Assembly: GCA_950295325.1 (NCBI GenBank)
Contig: OX485803.1
Span: forward strand, 46,265,554 to 46,329,553
Direction of reading: 5' to 3'
Length of the DNA stretch: 64,000 nt
From: Polytrichum commune
Lineage: Eukaryota; Streptophyta; Polytrichopsida; Polytrichales; Polytrichaceae
The notes under the pieces were generated by a model that had not been told where the DNA came from, searched no databases, and saw only the letters and a list, made by a program, of their open reading frames with translations. Positions 8,550-52,430 of this stretch are shown here, piece after piece (the first letter of the stretch is position 1; the number at the start of each line of letters is the position of its first letter). A program made the position numbers and the translations under genes.

Positions 8550-10710
8550 ACACACAACCATATACGAAAAAGAAAAAGAAGATAAATTGAAAAGTTGCTC
8601 GTTTTTTTTATCCACTTTATGTAGCGATTCAATAGAATTACTCATGGCATCAGGCACATGTTTTCAAAAGCATCCAAATCATGTTGGGTTTAATTACATC
8701 TGCATCTAACTTCAAAGATACAAAGCAAGTATTCATGACGGCCATGTATGAGGTGCAACTCCTATATGCATTCAGGGATTAACAGCTAAAGGCTTTTGAT
8801 TGTTTTTGTATGAATTGCATCCATTCGCTCTATGGCTACGCCCTTGATATGGATTTGTGAACCATTTTGTCCCCGCCAAGCATGTTTAGTGTCACCAAGA
8901 GAAGTGGACATACATAACAATCTTCAGCTCAATTTGTATGTTGGGTTGGGCCGGGAATAATCCATGTCTATTCATAATTATATGTTGTTTATTCTCACTG
9001 CAGAGCATATTCATGCTAATAAACTTGGGTGGAGTAGTGACACTGATATTATTAGGACAAAATGGTTGTTAACAATTGAATATTGTTACGTAGAGCTAAC
9101 AATGCCCATTTTAAGTGCACCTACATGGTTTGTGGCTTATTTTAAACTCCTATTCGTTTGGGTATCAAATAGAGGCATAGCATGGCTTGTGTGCACATTG
9201 TGAAACACACCATGTCAAAGACAAGTGCATGAAGGCTTTGCTGTAGGTAGGGTCATGGACTAAACCCTGGAGGTGGACTCCTCACACCACATACGAACTA
9301 ACGTGAGTGTAAGAAGGGGTAGTATAATTTGAGGTGTTAGTGTACATAATATACATAAGGGAGAGGTGGTGTTTTTCTTCTTCTTCTAGTGTGTACATTT
9401 TAAAAAGGTATTAAGAATCTTGAAGCAAAGGGGGCCTAAGGTTTAAAGGAAATTTGACAAGAGATGTTTTTGTTTCATCCATTGTGGTCATATGGTAATA
9501 GTCCTAAATGACTACCTTGTTCATTTTTGTTAGGGTTAATTTCTACAAATTAGAGGCTCTTGGACAACATAGGCTCCCTTGAGTTTTGCTCTCCGAAATT
9601 GTTGCTAAGTTATTGGGCTCTAGTCTTTGTATGTTTGGTGCAATTGTTGAGTTACATGCTATATGTGAAAACTCGTTCATTGGATTTCTCTTTGGAGAGT
9701 GAAAGTGGACTTTATATATGATAAAGACCTTTTTAAGTCATGATTTATGTTTTGTGTATGTAGTGCATGTATTTTTCACATTCAATTGAAAAGCTTAGTA
9801 TTAATACATAAATCCGTTTGCTAGCTTGCCATTAGGACATATACATTGAAGTTCCCGTGTCTAGGGGGTTTAATTTCATAGTGACCCATGCACGTGATTT
9901 AGGTTTCCAATGAAGAGTCCACGCCCTAAAGGACTGACTAATTTTATACCTCAATGATTACATATATACAAAATCGGAAGCTAGAGTGGCATGGCACTTG
10001 TACGTGGTCACACATTCTCACAATCATTTGGTATAGACAAGCCCAATTAGGTTACTTAAGCAACACCTCAGTCCATGTACAAATGGATGCTTCTATATGA
10101 CCACAATGAGTTGACAAGTTTATAAGAAAATGACACATAATCCAAGATAGATTTGGGTTACATGAATCTTAAATCCATTTCGGAAGGCTAATACAACAAG
10201 ATAGTTGGGGCATCGATCAAATCACGCTAAATACCCAACCTAATCAATGTATTGGGAAAATATACGACTACCTTATGAGCTTCCGAGCACCATCAATCCA
10301 ATAGCTTGAGTGCTTGGAACCCATCGCCACCTTGCAAGTGGTGTGGGTTGCATTCTTCACTTGGCTAAGTCCTCTTTAGATGTGTGGGTGCCAGTGGACA
10401 AAGTGAACCTAGTAGGGGAGGAAGAATGGACGCTCATGTTGCCCCGATCCCCCCTCCCGATTATGATCATTTGCAAAACTCCACCTCTTATTTAGAGCAT
10501 TAGCATGTGGGTAAGACTATACGCCATGCTTGTTAGTGTTGACAAACACATGCGTTGTCCATTTGATTCCCTTTCCTCTTCTTAACCTCTATTGTGTTTG
10601 TGATATTTATATGGCACCATGAGAACTTATAACTTTATAATTTATAGATTTGGACAAATGTTCACTAGAAATAACCATAAAATTGTTCATCTCCATTTCA
10701 CGGATTGGAT
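8550..10710. other. Anonymous intergenic DNA
   Basis: AT-rich with no supported gene or repeat array. It could include the 3' flank or terminator region of the minus-strand STPG gene. Confidence 0.4.
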
Positions 10711-10716
10711 TGCGAT

Positions 10717-11750
10717 GACTAGAGGGATGATCGTTGAGATCAAATCCATTCAAAGAGAACTTGTGAGCAAGAGACTTTCAAAATCATCGCAGTGGTCACG
10801 TACGAACCATAACCACAATCACTTGAGCAGTTGTGTGTAAACCCACCTTCAAGCAGGAGGGGATTCCGCAAGTGTAAGGGACGATGAGGCAGGAGTTGCA
10901 ACATTATAAGTAATGATGGTCCGCCTTACTTTGTGCAGATTAATGGCAATGTCTTTCCAACTATCTCCCAACTAGAGGGACGATCGCGGAGATCAAATCC
11001 ACTCAAAGAGTACTTGTGTGCACAAGACTTCCAAATAATCATCGCAGTGGGCACGTACGAACCATAACCACAACCACTTGAGCAGTTGTGTGTAAACCAT
11101 AGCCACACACCTTCAAGAAGGAGGAGATTCCACAGGCGTAAGGGACAATGAGGCAGGAGTTGCAACATTACTAGTAACGATGGTTTGCCTCACTTTGTGC
11201 AGATTAATGGCAATGTCTTTCCAACTATCCCCTCAACTAGAGGGACGATCGCTGAGATCGAACCCACCCAAAGAGTTATTATGTGCACAAAACTTTAAAA
11301 AATCATCGCAGTGGACACGAACCAACCGTAACCACAACCACTTGAGCAGTGGTGTGTGAAACGCACCTTCAAGCAGGAGGTGATTCCGCAGGTGTAAAGG
11401 ACGACGAAGCGGGAGCTGCAACAGTATTAGTGACGATGGTCTGCCTCACTTTGTGCAGATTAATGGCAATGTCTTTCCAACTATCCCCTCAACTAGAGGG
11501 ACGATCGTTGAGATCAAACCCACTCAAAGAGTTCTTATGTGCACAAAACTTTAAAAAATCATCGCAGTGGACACGAACCAACCACAACCACAACCACTCG
11601 AGCAGTGGTGTGTGAAACGCATGCACCTTCAAGCAGGAGGTGATTCCGCAGGTGTAAAGGACGACGAAGTGGGAGCTGCAACAGTATTAGTGACGATGGT
11701 CTGCCTCACTTTGTGCAGATTAATGGCAATGTCTTTCCAACTATCCCCCC
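10717..11750 (-). repeat. Four-copy tandem array (about 260 bp unit) made from the STPG last-exon 3' end
   Basis: The marker GTCTTTCCAACTATC recurs at 10951, 11215, 11471 and 11731, giving periods of 264, 256 and 260 bp. The last copy is the genuine 3' coding end of the STPG gene (stop at 11629-11631). On the minus strand each unit carries the tail that reads SWKDIAINLHKVRQTIVTN in the gene, then its stop and about 140 bp of 3' flank. Upstream of the Ser-Trp the first three copies switch to unrelated sequence with a stop, so they are not coding on their own. Confidence 0.85.
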
Positions 11751-14700
11751 GCTCCTTCTTGGCTTTCTTCTCCACCGGCTGCTCCTCGGGAGGTTGCTTC
11801 ATCGTCATGGTATTACTAGTATTGTTGTTATTGCTCCCACAAGCGGCCGCGTTCGGGTCAAGGCAGGGTGGGAGTTGGGGTTTGCGAGGGCCGGGCTTGT
11901 GGTAGATGTGGCTAGGGATGTCGGGCTTGTAGTGGATGTGGGTGGTGTGCTTGCGGTGAATCTCATGGGGTGGAGCAGGGATTTGCTCCACGTCAAAGTC
12001 TTGGGGAAATAACACGGTCGCCCTCTTTGGCTTGAAGTCAAAGAATTGGCAATCAGCAGGAGCATGGCTGGCTGGCACTACTGCAAGCAAGCCCAGGTTT
12101 GAGGGCACATACGTAATGAAAGTGTGTGCACACCCATCCCTAGCTAACCTTGACCTATCGTGCTTAGGGCCAAGTTCCATGTGCCGGTCCCGGTCCGTTT
12201 TTTAAATGGGTGAGAAACAGGTGACATCATCCAAAAAATGGGTGATGTCACCCATTTTATGGAGGGGTACTTCTATGTGGGGTGCCGGTTTTTTTCGATT
12301 TCCTACTTTCTAACTAAATTTGGTGAGTGATAAGACATGACACTTTATGAAGGTCACCGGCAATGAAGGTCACCTAGATTCTAAAAACATCATAAAATAC
12401 ATGTTCCCTAGGAGTACTCTGCAAAAGAAGGGATTAGAAGAACAAAGTGGCCTTTAGTATCCAAGGGTGTACCCTAGGTGACCGGAAGATCCGGTCACCT
12501 GAGCTTTCTAACCGGCACATGTCCTTCTCGTTACCGTTAGGACCGCCGGTCCTTTGGCACCCGTTCTTGCACAACACAAAATGTGGGACACCCATCCATG
12601 GGGGGCACCGGTCCTTGGGTGAGAAGGATGGGCACATGGCACCACCCTCTTTTCACCAGCCCACCCATTTATTTTGAAAAAAACGGACCGGGACCGGCAC
12701 ATGGAACTTGGCCCTTAGGGTAGACGTGTGTTAAGTGGTGAAGTTAGGGCGGGTTTAGACTTGGAGTCAAGGCTCAAAAATGGGTTGGGGTGAAAGAAAT
12801 CCACTCCTCTCATTGGTAGAGAGGCTGGGACTCGCCTCTTTAAGTTTACACCATGAGTTGGGGCCAATTAACAAATAAATTATTTTATTCATCATGACAA
12901 TGGCCTCAAGCCTTGGAAAATAGAGCTCCCAACCTTGTGGACTCTTTCCCTCTAGTTGAGGCCATTGTCAGAGCTTTTATTTGCTTGTAGTAGTTTATTT
13001 TTTTAGCATTGAATAGGACGGGAGACATTCTAAATTTATTATACTTTAATCATTATCCATAGAATAGTTCATGAGTATGTTGGAACCTCTCATAACCCTA
13101 TATAATTGCAGCCTCCAAATGGCCCCAACCCCACCTAAATAGGTTTACACATGAAAACAATGTATGGAGTTAGGTTACTTTCTTATTAATGGCCTTGGGG
13201 GCCCATTTGCATGCCACATGGGACATATTGGCCTTCGTTCACAATGGCCTTGGCCCCAAGTCTAAACATGCCCTTAGTCTTTGTTGTTTGCCATGATTCC
13301 GAGATTGGATTTCGGAGTTTGGACTCTCTTGCGCGTGGTATGAGATTCTAGCGACAAATCTATGGAGTTGTCCGTATCTCCCATGTTGTTACAATGAGCT
13401 TATAACATCGGTAGTGTTGGAGCGGTAGAATGACCATGGTTAGGACTTGCCTCCCTTCGATTGTGTTGAATGTTGAGGCTAGGATGATTAACAGGTTTTG
13501 AACATGTAGCCTAGTTTCTTTAAACACGTGTCTATCTAGTATCCATTCTTAGATCTTCGAATGTAGACCACCAATCAAGATAAGTGACCAGATTGCGCAC
13601 GTCTAACTTAAATGATACTAAGTTAGTTGTTTCTAGCGATCGTCATACATGATATTATTAGATTGACAAGTTTTTGAATAGTTAGAGTTAGCATTTGACA
13701 GGGGGTTTCTTCACCGCACCAAAGTATGTTTGATTTGATTCCGTATGCAAATGGTATAATAAGGGTTCAAACTTTTATTGGTGCATGATTCAGAAGTGAT
13801 GTGGGGAACATGATGTTAAGGTGGTGGAGACTCTCATAATTAATACATACCTATTGTTCAAGGTTTATAGTTGTTGGTTGGGGATGGGGGTGTTGGTTTT
13901 GCACCACCTATCTTACCTTATAATGCGTTCTAACTTTAGGTACATATCCAAGTTTGAAATGTACATATTGTAGAGAAAATCGTTTCAACTATGACTTTCA
14001 ATTCAAGAAATTGGAAGACATTCACCTCAAGTTCAAAAGAAATCTCATCTCTCATGTTCCTCATTTGGATTTATCGAAGTCTTCATGTGATTTCTATCTT
14101 GTTACACACATGCTAAAATCCAAAAAGTCTCCATAATATGTGGACTCACCTTAGGTATCATGAAATCGTGCGCTATACTTCTCGATACACTATATGTACA
14201 TGCTCATCAACGTGAATGACAGTGATCTCTTGACAAATTTCAAGTTTGTTCCAAATTATTAAGTATTAATGTTATAATTTTTGTAATATTGGACTAAAAT
14301 TGTTATGGAAAATGATTTACTAGATGCAAGATACCCTAATCCCTACATTATTAGACGCATTTGCACAAACCTCGCAAGTTTTGTGTCAATGCATAAAATC
14401 GACCTTATCTCAATAACTTTGTATTGCGATACAACATTGTGAGTCATGTCAGTTAAATGGTCACACTGATGATCCTATTTAGTGTGATCTGAATGAAATT
14501 CTTGAGGTTGCATGGGATCCAAGTTTCTCTTTGGATGACCCTAAAGGGCAAGAGTGGCCACATTGCCATCAAGGGACCGAAATACAAACATTTTTTCTTA
14601 ACATGGCCATGAATAGAAGTGAAATGAAGAATATGAGACCCAAATTTCTATGTGATGTGCATAATGATCATCATATTTACAAAACAATTATTAGTTTAAT

Positions 14701-16886
14701 ATCAAAACCACAAAGCATGACCTGATTGGCCACTAAGACAAGTGTAATATTGCCTCCATCCTACCACAATGGCTACCAACAACCCCCAAAAAAGAAAAGA
14801 ATTTTTTTTGCTACTGCATGTATGGATGTTTTCTTCCTAACATCTTCATGAAAATTAGATCTAGGATTGATAAGGCGCAAGATTGTTATAAGAAACGTAG
14901 TGCATAAAAATTAGGGTCCCATTTAATGTTTCAAAGTCAAAATTAGAATAATATTTGAAAATCTATGGTAAAAAAAATTTAACTTTGAGAATATAATATG
15001 CATATCTCAATAATATTCATCAAAATTTGCAAAACATGTCATGAATATGTGCGCTACTCACCACACCTACAATCATATCAACTCGTGGGAACACTTGAGA
15101 TGAGGAGATTACTTGGCATACATGAGGAGTGTGTGTCCAATACCAAGGGTTGTTTCATCTTGGGGTGGTTGTGTTTGTTTTTGAGGTTGTGAGTTAATTT
15201 CTTTGATTCCAATTACATTGTAAAATAATAATATATGCTAAGCACAAAACCATGACGATCCTTTACCCCATGCACCCCACTACTCCGCGTGGTTAACCAC
15301 CCCTATGGTGGTTGTTCAGACTCATGTGGTACTACTAGAGCGCTTCAAGGCCAAGGTCCAGGGAGAAAGCCGAGGAAGCAACCACTCTAGTGCATCTTTT
15401 CACTAGGGCCAACCATGCATGTGCGATTGACCACCCCTAGTGCAAATGCAATGCGATCGTGATCGTAGTCGGTGATTGATGGTTAGAATATACCATGACC
15501 GACCTAGTAGTGTCAACAACCCTTTTAGCGGTGATGACAACGTGAGGAAGTGCAAACGAAAGGGAAATGCACATACCACCGCGCGGATGAATTAGTGGCA
15601 GGGCGGGTGTGGGGGCCCTGGGGGGGGGGGGGACCGTTGCCGTGGCACTACTAGAGTGCTTCAAGGCCAAGGTCCAAGGAGAAAATCGAGGAAGCAACCA
15701 CTAGATCTAGTGCACCTTTTTACGAGGGCCGACCATGCATGTGCAATTAACCACCCCTAGTGCAAATGCAATGTGGTCGTGATCGTAGTCCATGGTCGAT
15801 GGTTAGAACTGACACCATAACCAACCTAGTGGTGTCAACAACCCTTTTCGTGTTGATGACAGCGTGAGGAAGTGCAAACAAAAGGAAAGTGCACATACCA
15901 CTGTGCGATCCAGTGGCAGGGCGGGCGTGGGGGCTCTGGGGATGGGACCATTGCCGTGGCACGACTAGAGCGCTTCAAGACCAAGGTCCATGGAGGAAAA
16001 TCGAGGAAGCAACCACTCTCATGCACCTTTTTACGAGGGCCAACCATGCATGTGCGATTAACCACCCCTAGTGCAAATGCAATGTGGTCGTGATCGTAAT
16101 CCATGGTATACCATAACCAACCAAGCGCTGTCATCAACGACCCTTTTCGTGGTAATGACAACACGAGGAGGAAGTGCAAACGAGAAGGAAAGTGCACATA
16201 CCACCGCGCGAATTAGTGGCAGGACGGGCGTGGGGGCCCTGGGGGTGAGGCCGTTGCCGTAGTGCATTCGAGTAGCGCCGCTCCCTCTTCTTATCGCGGA
16301 GCCGGTAGAAGCGCTTGGCCATACTGAACATGGGACCCGAGAACTCGGCCGAGCGCAGGTTATAAGTGCCCGGGCCCGGCCCACTCAGGAGCGTCTCGAA
16401 GAAGTGTTGGCCCATGCTATAGGAAGGAGCACTGGATGGGCTCTTAGGGCTGTAAGTGCCGGGACCGGGGTTCGTATTCAGCTTCGCATTGAACCGCTGG
16501 CCCAAGCTGTAGGCAGGCCCTCCCAGCTCCTCCCGCAAATCATACGTTCCGGGCCCGGGGATGCCCTGGTCGGGGTGGTAGTTGTAAGGGCCCTGCATGG
16601 TGTATTCCGGCGCTTTGTGGTTAGTGTGCTTGAAGTTGGCGTGGTATGTTCCCGGGCCTGGCACGTTCGTGCCCGAGGGCCCTAAGAAGCGGTCCCCCAT
16701 GGTGTACTTGGGACTCGTGTTGCCGTCCCTCCGCACATTGTAGGTCCCGGGTCCGGGGCGATCGTAGTCGAACCATATGTTGGTTCGCAAGCCGAACGTG
16801 GGTTTCGGGGCCGACGGCAGCGTCTGCTCGTACTTCGCGTGGTATGTGCCTGGCCCCGGGTTGTCTTCGTTCCAGTCCCGCTCCAT
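11629..16886 (-). CDS. Sperm-tail PG-rich repeat (STPG/SHIPPO) protein, two-exon model
   Basis: Exon 1 is 16886-16202 and exon 2 is 12080-11629. The donor is GGTG|GTATGT (intron starts at 16201) and the acceptor is CTTGCAG|TAGTGCC. Exon lengths 685 + 452 total 1137 nt, in phase, giving 378 residues. Exon 1 has six PGPGTY motifs at residues 10, 44, 76, 110, 140 and 170, with Y(S/T)MG-type words between them. That is the hallmark of STPG proteins, which associate with flagellar or axonemal microtubules. Exon 2 adds a Pro/His/Lys-rich tail (PHEIHRKHTTHIHYKPDIP) that I do not recognise. An in-frame TAG lies just upstream of the ATG, so the start is plausible, though an extra 5' exon is not excluded. 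The apparent ATG at 12180 lies inside a MITE and is not a start. The 4.1-kb intron could hide further small exons. Confidence 0.75.
12167..12714. mobile_element. Tourist-like MITE with 37-bp perfect TIRs, inside the STPG intron
   Basis: The ends read GGGCCAAGTTCCATGTGCCG and continue as a perfect 37-bp inverted repeat. TTA duplications lie at 12164-12166 and 12715-12717. It is the best-preserved MITE in the window, which suggests recent insertion. It lies 86 bp upstream (in the gene's sense) of the exon-2 acceptor at 12081. Short internal frames are not genes. Confidence 0.88.
12747..13273. mobile_element. Tourist-like MITE, second copy in the STPG intron
   Basis: The left end GGGCGGGTTTAGACTTGG and inverted right end GGGCATGTTTAGACTTGG match, with TTA on both sides (12744-12746, 13274-13276). 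About 527 bp. Only 32 bp separate it from the previous element. Confidence 0.78.
13280..15320. other. STPG intron sequence without recognisable features
   Basis: This is the middle of the proposed intron. One dispersed-repeat copy (13479-13556) is embedded. I see no exon here with STPG motifs. Confidence 0.45.
13479..13556 (+). repeat. Dispersed repeat, copy 2 of 3
   Basis: Matches the segments at 7650-7730 and 44934-45010: GATTAACAGGTTTTGA, then CTTTAAACACGTGT and CATTCTTAGAT. Class unknown. Confidence 0.55.
15330..16262 (-). repeat. Three-copy tandem array (about 315 bp unit) made from the STPG exon-1 end and 5' splice site
   Basis: The marker CGCTTCAAG(G/A)CCAAGGTCCA (first two bases TG in copy 2) starts at 15341, 15657 and 15971, giving periods of 316 and 314 bp. 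On the minus strand every unit carries a version of the end of exon 1 (coding CCACGCCCGNCCTGCCACT) followed by the donor GTGGTATGTGCA. Units differ by substitutions; the 15.6-kb unit has a run of 13 G. The array lies within the proposed intron directly behind the real donor at 16201/16202. Confidence 0.85.
15899..15964 (-). other. Candidate 66-nt cassette exon in the STPG intron
   Basis: Within one unit of the splice-site array, a minus-strand acceptor (pyrimidine-rich, ending CGCTCTAG) and the donor GTG|GTATGTGC bound exactly 66 nt. The segment is open in the phase used by the gene (VPRQWSHPQSPHARPA...) and resembles the end of exon 1 (RQRPHPQGPHARPA). Inclusion would keep the reading frame. 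No expression evidence is available, so it is a hypothesis. Confidence 0.35.
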
Positions 16887-16959
16887 GTATGTGTGGGTTC
16901 CCTTACTTGTTGCCTTCTTTAAGAACTAAGTGAAGTGGGTCGAGGTTGGAATAATGTGG

Positions 16960-27999: not shown

Positions 28000-29400
28000 C
28001 CAGCACCAATAACGTTATCTAACTGACGGGTCATAAGACATGGGAAGGTTTAAATAGGCAATTAGGCTAGGTTGGTAAGGCCGCAAGATAGATAGGAAGG
28101 GGTTGTATCTGACAAGGCTATTGGTAATGTGTCATCAAGGTAGGATTGTAACCGATATTGTGAAAAACAATTACCGGTAAGGTACACTCGGTAGAGTACA
28201 AAAGAATAAGAACCCAAATACGGTTATAACGACCTATCTATTAGGGGGTAGAGAAAATATTATTTTATAATAAAAAACCACCCCACCACCCCTCTACTAC
28301 CACAACCACCGCTTTAAATGCCCTAACTCCCACACATACTATACATACGGATCATTGGCCTCCCCCCAGCCCACCGAGGCAAAGAAGGCACAATTGGGCT
28401 AGGGGTCTACCACCATGCATGCAACATTCAACCTACTTATTGACTCCCAAACAACTAAAACATCCTACAAGTCAAATTTATAGCCATGTTCACAACCCTC
28501 CACTTCACCAAGGACAACACGACACACTCATACACTTTCACAAATAACGTGAAGTCTCTCTACCTCATCAACAACCACATCCGCCACATGATCTTCCATC
28601 AAAATCACCCAAATGAACTACTCGTTGAAGTTGTAATATGATGTCTCTTCCACCAAAACTACTTAATCACGCTCAAAAAAATCCGTGCACACTTGGTAAT
28701 CCTCAGCAACGACATCCCCAATAATTTTGGAGCCAACAGACCACCACAATGTATCACTCCTACAATGCATACAACACGTATTGCCCCTTTATGGCACTTC
28801 AAAATACTCGTAGAACACCCACATACCACACCCAACCGACACCTTATACCCTACATATGGAAGGATTACATTGCCAACTCGTGACCACAATATGCACACC
28901 TCACAAAATGGCTCACCACTACAACCCCCTTGTCCGCTCAACTATTTCTAATTATGTTTGGTCGTATGCACAGACACTCAACCTACAGTGTGGCCAATAC
29001 ATGGGCAATCATAGGAAACACACCATTTGGCCTACTTAATTTCTCATATTAAGTATTTCTCATATTTATATTGAATTTGAAATCTCCAATGCAACTTAAG
29101 GTTTGGATCATGTGCTCCCTTGCGAGGTGGAACACATATTACATCTTCACCAATTGCTTTGCTCCCTACTTGCATATTTGGAAGGTTATAGGCAGTGCTC
29201 AAGCGCCAAAGGTGCAACTTATGCATTAAAGAAGGATTGTAACTTCCACTGACAATATCAATGATTTATATTTCCTCATAGTTGCAAACAATTCCCAATT
29301 TAATCCATCCTCATAAAAAGTTTGTGGAGTTTGAAGTGCATACATCGAGTGAAATATCTATATATAATCCATAACATTGACGGGGATGCTTCACGTGACT
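28000..29400. other. Intergenic DNA including an A/C-rich, G-poor block
   Basis: From about 28270 to 29040 the plus strand is strikingly A/C-rich and poor in G, with several open frames of no recognisable type. This skew could mark a decayed element or transcript. No gene is supported. Confidence 0.4.
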
Positions 29401-51300: not shown

Positions 51301-52430
51301 GTATATAAAGAATTGAAACCTTCTTTTTTAATTTTTAAAAACCCCTTGTAGAGCGTTTAATTTAAAAAGGTCCACACGAGTGGTTGCCTCTACTTAAAAT
51401 TAAGAGTCATTGGCCATGTTTTATTTACAATAAAAATATATTGTTTTTTAAAACTAAAAAGCCCAAAAAGTTGGGTAGTTTGGCCTATGGTACCCGTATT
51501 TTAAAAACTCATATAATGAGGTTGTTAATGCAATTATATGCGTCAAGGAATATTCATGTCTTGTATAAATTCCTTGTCAGAAGGGATATAAGAGTTTCCT
51601 ACATCAAAACAAAATATATCACTCGAGATTGGACTAAAATGCGTTATAAATGATTACAATTAGGGCCATATAATACTGGACTTGCGTACCTAGGCATAGT
51701 ACATGTTATAGTCTAGGCACTTTGCTATTTTTGGACCGTGCCACATCAAAGTTTCCACATCTTCCAAACCAACCACCATATGACACATGTCAACATCATT
51801 TGCAGAAATGATCAATAATAGTGTCAGAACCGATAGAATACCATGACGGTATATGAAATTCGGTGAGTTTACATTTGGCTCCAAGTTCACAAAACTTCGG
51901 GTCCAAAACACCCCTTAATGGACTCTACTTTTTGTACTCGATCTTTAGACCCACATTTGAAGATTGGTTTCTCATACTAGGAAGAGCGATTTCTTGAGTG
52001 GGGACCGTTGGATTCGATGGGGAAACGATCCCACATTCTTGCGACTTCAGTTCGTCATAACTTGGATTTGAACCGTAATGTAACCTCCTTGGATCAAAAA
52101 TTGACTCTCAACTAACAAGATCGCGACTGGCATTTTAAGTATATTTGGACAACCCACTTGTTTAAAAATAACAAGGGACGTGCACACGTGGGGACAAAAA
52201 CATCAAACGACATAACAACCACGACTTCGAGTATATTGTATTCCATGCTTGCCAACCACCACATCTATGTAGTTTTGCGACCCAATGCATGTCATATCGA
52301 TAATCGTGATTATTCAAAACTCGTGCATAAATCCAAATATACTTACACCCCAATTTCCCTCAGAATTTTCAAATCTTACACCTCAGTTTACAAACACTCT
52401 CATTATGAAACATGTGAGGTTGATTACACT
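48330..52430. other. Anonymous intergenic DNA
   Basis: Includes a TA microsatellite (about 48600-48616), a C run (50382-50391), and a 25-bp segment near 49802 similar to 46918. No supported gene. Confidence 0.4.

Follow-up and report, generated by a model that had tools for sequence, protein, structure and literature searches.

Duplicated 5′ splice sites have reportedly been set in competition by Reed and Maniatis (in 1986), in constructs that were engineered and assayed. In the case of IFI6 (also 6-16 or G1P3), a repeat with a short unit stands beside an exon. This minisatellite provides several donor sites (Turri, Cuin and Porter 1995, as cited in PMC2572611 and PMC4526556), and PMC4526556 reports that two downstream units of the repeat serve as donors. 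In the potato RdRp gene, a tandem genomic duplication across an intron-exon boundary is described together with a new intron backed by RNA-Seq reads (PMC4974935), and in Drosophila, intron sliding and novel introns by tandem duplication are described (PMC2891723). Here, a tandem array is described that copies the end of a coding exon together with its donor in a gene of Polytrichum commune, within a window of 64,000 nucleotides (the whole stretch of DNA that was analysed, to which all plain coordinates refer). A literature search in general terms found neither this gene nor its array.

Host gene and predicted exons

The gene lies on the minus strand, and two coding exons and the donor between them are predicted as follows.

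16202..16886, minus strand: predicted first coding exon (exon 1), 685 nt, from the ATG at 16886 to the last base at 16202
16193..16204, minus strand: genuine donor GTG/GTATGTGCA (the slash marks the splice site), GT at 16201-16200, with an in-frame junction to 12080
11629..12080, minus strand: exon 2, predicted to be the last coding exon, 150 aa, with an open frame that is in phase with exon 1

Joined at the 16201 donor and an acceptor before 12080, the two exons would read in frame through to the TGA stop at 11631-11629, and the predicted protein is 378 aa long (379 codons including the stop). The exon 1 protein contains PGPGTY repeats and is matched by PF07004 in five stretches (E 4.8e-23, 80.9 bits versus a cut-off of 20), as are characteristic of the SHIPPO/ODF3-CIMAP1 family, and its sequence matches two solved chains, both of ODF3/CIMAP1A (best E 3.1e-6). 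The exon 1 product is predicted to be a SHIPPO, or sperm-tail PG-rich repeat, protein; the name STPG comes from an earlier note on this DNA, while the matches themselves name SHIPPO repeats and ODF3/CIMAP1A. Exon 2 has no Pfam match at E 0.1. A search of the whole genome with exon 2 gave four matches, all within the window gene and its own array, where a missing match elsewhere is not proof of absence.

Contig C7 carries a paralogue that starts at the equivalent Met and shows 62% identity over residues 14-229 of 241 aa. In the 9.9 kb near it, no convincing counterpart of exon 2 was found (one 10-residue match, E 0.43, on the wrong strand). Exon 1 of the paralogue apparently ends at CCCCAAG/GTGAGT, where the window gene has CCCCAGGGCCCC. 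By hand alignment, with a gap nearby in the protein alignment, the window donor seems to lie 36 nt (12 codons, 16202-16237) downstream of that of the paralogue and in the same phase, and the exon 1 donor of the window gene may itself have been shifted relative to the C7 paralogue.

The donor array

The end of exon 1 belongs to a direct tandem array on the minus strand (window 15326-16260, 935 bp), for which TRF gives 3.0 copies, 83% matches and a score of 1201.

15956..16260, minus strand: array unit 1, 305 bp, with the last 59 nt of exon 1, the genuine donor, the start of intron 1 and the left part of an interspersed element
15642..15955, minus strand: array unit 2, 314 bp, with a donor copy, GT at 15898
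15326..15641, minus strand: array unit 3, 316 bp, with a donor copy, GT at 15576

The near edge of the array is 59 nt inside exon 1, and the far edge is inside an interspersed TIR element of the intron. It is not a tandem duplication of a whole exon: the unit starts 59 nt before the donor, within a coding exon of 685 nt. The earlier note had proposed that a stretch bearing a 5′ splice site was amplified in tandem into its own intron, and the TRF array agrees with this; the end of exon 1 plus GTGGTATGTGCA, said to be copied in each unit, is indeed present in three of three. The arrangement had been read differently in two respects, with three units behind the genuine donor and up to four donors. 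Unit 1 (16260-15956) itself carries the genuine donor, and only three GTG/GTATGT donors exist on the minus strand of the array, with GT at 16201, 15898 and 15576; a fourth GTGGTATGTG, at 28820 on the minus strand of the window, is unrelated to it. The term “near-identical” suits the donors (12/12 bases) and does not suit the units, whose pairwise identities are 264/295, 258/295 and 269/308 (87-90%), leaving 31/295, 37/295 and 39/308 mismatches plus indels, with K2P of 0.115-0.143. Three copies at 87-90% identity over 935 bp do not look like a chance match. A collapsed or assembly-made array is unlikely because the units have diverged, and a false expansion as an assembly artefact has hardly any chance of being the explanation, when 10-13% of positions differ between units, in addition to indels, and the entire array is <1 kb.

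Predicted use of the three donors

As in IFI6, each unit places a donor beside exon sequence. When scored with a plant donor matrix written for this analysis, the three donors tie as the top-scoring GT sites in 16400-15100 and stand at the 99.1th percentile of 7408 GT sites on both window strands. By default, donor 1 would be used, and units 2 and 3 would be removed as intron. If exon 1 is extended to donor 2 or 3, translation meets a common in-frame stop at 16136-16134, which follows 263 codons when counting starts at 16925; such an extension keeps the SHIPPO part, replaces the last 150 aa by 22 aa, and leaves the junction at least 235 nt downstream of the stop. mRNAs with a junction that far past the stop are expected to be NMD targets. 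Because both extensions reach the same in-frame stop, they would probably yield truncated, NMD-prone messages and not a series of proteins.

Such messages could serve a functional multi-donor switch, in which donor 1 gives the full-length product and donors 2 and 3 give truncated ones (22 aa for the C-terminal 150), possibly for dose control through NMD. It would accord with the three identical donor 9-mers, top-scoring in the 1.3-kb region and invariant over 12 bases, and with the downstream repeat units of IFI6 reported as donors in PMC4526556. However, the invariance is only weakly above the alignment background: the unit alignment has four stretches of at least 12 invariant columns (12, 13, 16 and 24), of which the donor 12-mer is one, and a column shuffle gives 0.022 at exactly that place, in a test picked after the invariance had been seen. 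Furthermore, the exon part of the units (46, 52 and 47 of 57 positions identical in the three comparisons) is no better kept than the remainder (218/238, 206/238 and 222/251). The sign of selection on the donors is only weak, and a switch is unlikely; the best reading of donors 2 and 3 is that they are unselected decoys, which could at most give rise to truncated isoforms at a low level.

Units 2 and 3 might also become new exons via AG sites in the unit tails, as emerging cassette exons or a case of intron gain. The donor of unit 2 combined with CTCTAG ending at 15965 would delimit a cassette of 66 nt (15964-15899) that reads through to the exon 2 stop, and a boundary-crossing tandem duplication created a new intron in potato, as stated in PMC4974935. 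This cassette is the sole one in frame among 14 candidates of ≤140 nt ending at donor 2 (1/7) or donor 3 (0/7), and pyrimidines number 7-13 per 20 positions in all but one candidate, which has 16. The “newly arisen exon array” of the earlier note accordingly finds little support in units where no more than the 3′ end of an exon is copied, and the emergence of cassettes is very improbable.

The interspersed element and the direction of copying

The element cut by the far edge of the array has a left and a right terminus in intron 1.

15145..15524, minus strand: interspersed TIR element in intron 1, left TIR 15524-15510, right TIR 15159-15145

Its 15-bp inverted termini are near AAGGGTCGTTTACAC. 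Units 1 and 2 carry further copies of the left part of this element, with left TIR-like sites at 16145 and 15846, and each unit has one such site (16145, 15846 and 15524) versus a single right site at 15159-15145. The last ~62 bp of the units have at least 42 matches in the 408-Mb genome, at least 41 of them besides the array; those 41 sit in 39 loci, of which seven were first compared in detail and 32 were added. Both ends of the element were found in five of the eight loci picked for an end search, with 446-484 bp between the outer ends of the 15-bp TIRs. The element is short, dispersed and bounded by terminal inverted repeats, like a MITE, yet 14 of the 39 loci have neither end at 3 mismatches, and its flanks show no clear target-site duplication. 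The TIR motif is weak when taken singly (1.73 chance matches expected in 7.3 kb at 4 mismatches and five seen, one of them in a second array described below), but the register of these matches and the continuity of the BLAST matches agree. Two loci, L048 (994-1685) and L060 (1062-1711), each contain two copies of the element in direct orientation ~450 bp apart.

The match of unit 3 continues beyond the array edge for ~140-180 bp in six of the seven interspersed loci, whereas the matches of units 1 and 2 end at the edge in the seven loci compared. When crossing is defined as a match that starts before the edge and ends at least 24 bases past it, similarity crosses the far edge in 34 of the 39 element loci, the exceptions being L008, L040, L045, L057 and L061. 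Both internal junctions read CCAC/GGCAA, versus ...CACT/ACGGCAA in the exon and ...CCAC/ATGAG in the element, with “AC” in common. The exon side, held to be ancestral in the earlier note, is supported as the source, because the far breakpoint cuts an interspersed element that continues past the array edge.

A second array and arrays elsewhere

There is another array in the same gene, at the last coding exon.

10718..11748, minus strand: second array, 4 units of ~256 bp each (260, 256, 264 and 251 bp)

Each of its units combines ~120 nt from the end of the coding sequence, stop included, with 3′ flanking sequence and a left-hand piece of a related element, and copies 2-4 are 95, 85 and 84% identical to copy 1. 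The match of copy 4 passes the far edge to 10650-10656 in three of five loci (L016, L017 and L020), at only 63-66% identity, and stops near 10804 in L018 and L019. The flank begins right at the stop codon with a left-end-like sequence of the related element. The TGA directly abuts the left terminus of that TIR element (11631-11617 and 10852-10835, minus strand, TGAAGGTG..TTTACACAC), and the stop of the gene may be partly derived from this terminus. The two arrays seem alike in joining an exon end to the left part of an element, with the far breakpoint inside the element, more firmly so for the first.

A Helitron was considered, as the units of both types end near CTCTAGT, and a Helitron-like end has the motif CTRR/T; the idea was set aside, since the interspersed copies run on and have inverted terminal motifs instead.

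In addition, arrays were sought elsewhere in the genome. None of the 39 loci of the first element family (88,040 bases) has a TRF array with a unit of at least 40 bp, while a random sample (12 10-kb stretches of 14 drawn, 120 kb) has one array with units of at least 150 bp, a single case being too few for a rate. This array, 3 x 206 bp at L028 (1835-2441), has a last unit that runs into an interspersed sequence common to L042, L033, L030, L056 and window 51851-52124. On C7, a 4 x 175-bp array (L021, 7393-8117) lies ~2.9 kb beyond the paralogue exon; its units hold an ATG and a donor-like site CTAG/GTAAAC, and it has no match among the other loci compared. Clearly, such arrays are not extremely rare and not confined to the window gene, and the abundance of repeats alone may lead many of them to end in one.

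The element as a general cause of arrays is not supported, given the absence of a TRF array in all 39 loci and the presence of the L028 array in the random sample, although the L028 array too ends inside interspersed sequence. In a more far-reaching reading, insertion of the TIR family beside exon ends would repeatedly give rise to arrays of an exon end plus half an element, as in the threefold donor array and the fourfold stop/3′-end array of one gene, with the donor array acting as a switch between the full-length and a C-terminally replaced sperm-tail protein; we regard it as improbable.

Proposed origin of the donor array

Our favoured explanation is an ordinary duplication. A MITE-like TIR element would have inserted in intron 1, ~55 nt behind the donor, and a local tandem duplication would then have copied the segment that starts 59 nt inside exon 1 and ends midway through the element. 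The ends of the duplication have only “AC” in common, as expected of end-joining or replication slippage, and later unequal exchange or slippage would have added a third copy with the same junction. We infer the order of events, the repair mechanism and the normal use of donor 1 with removal of units 2 and 3 as intron; the units, both junctions, the run of the element beyond the array edge, the one right terminus against three left ones and the in-frame junction from donor 1 are read directly from the sequence. Very likely, the array arose through element insertion, tandem duplication and an increase from two to three copies, with donor 1 normally used and donors 2 and 3 as decoys. Points against it are the invariant donor 12-mer, the in-frame 66-nt cassette, the five non-crossing loci, the weak TIR motif and the lack of a clear target-site duplication. 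Also counted against an ordinary duplication is the second array at the other coding exon, which hints at a special cause. As read from its sequence, the donor array is a real but ordinary local duplication with a clear origin, and functional claims are not favoured.

By itself, such an array is ordinary genome turnover. It also offers, in natural form, a clean example of one exon accompanied in cis by identical 5′ splice sites, in which the far breakpoint inside a mobile element reveals the direction of copying, and with a parallel array at its last exon the gene is useful for studying the duplication of exon ends.

Comparison with known systems

Copies of an exon end and donor in cis are common to the window array and to the constructs ascribed to Reed and Maniatis; theirs were engineered, whereas the window array is natural and known from sequence. 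With IFI6, the array shares exon-adjacent tandem units that each supply a splice donor. The use of downstream donors is reported there, while the donors here are candidates read from the DNA, in ~310-bp units that include part of a mobile element. The potato RdRp gene likewise has a tandem duplication that crosses an exon-intron boundary; in contrast, it concerns the acceptor side, with two copies and an RNA-supported new intron, versus the donor side and three copies here, from genomic evidence. To the Drosophila cases, the window gene is similar in having a tandem duplication near an exon boundary and a donor whose position apparently differs by 36 nt, with phase kept, from that in its paralogue, by a hand alignment with a nearby gap.
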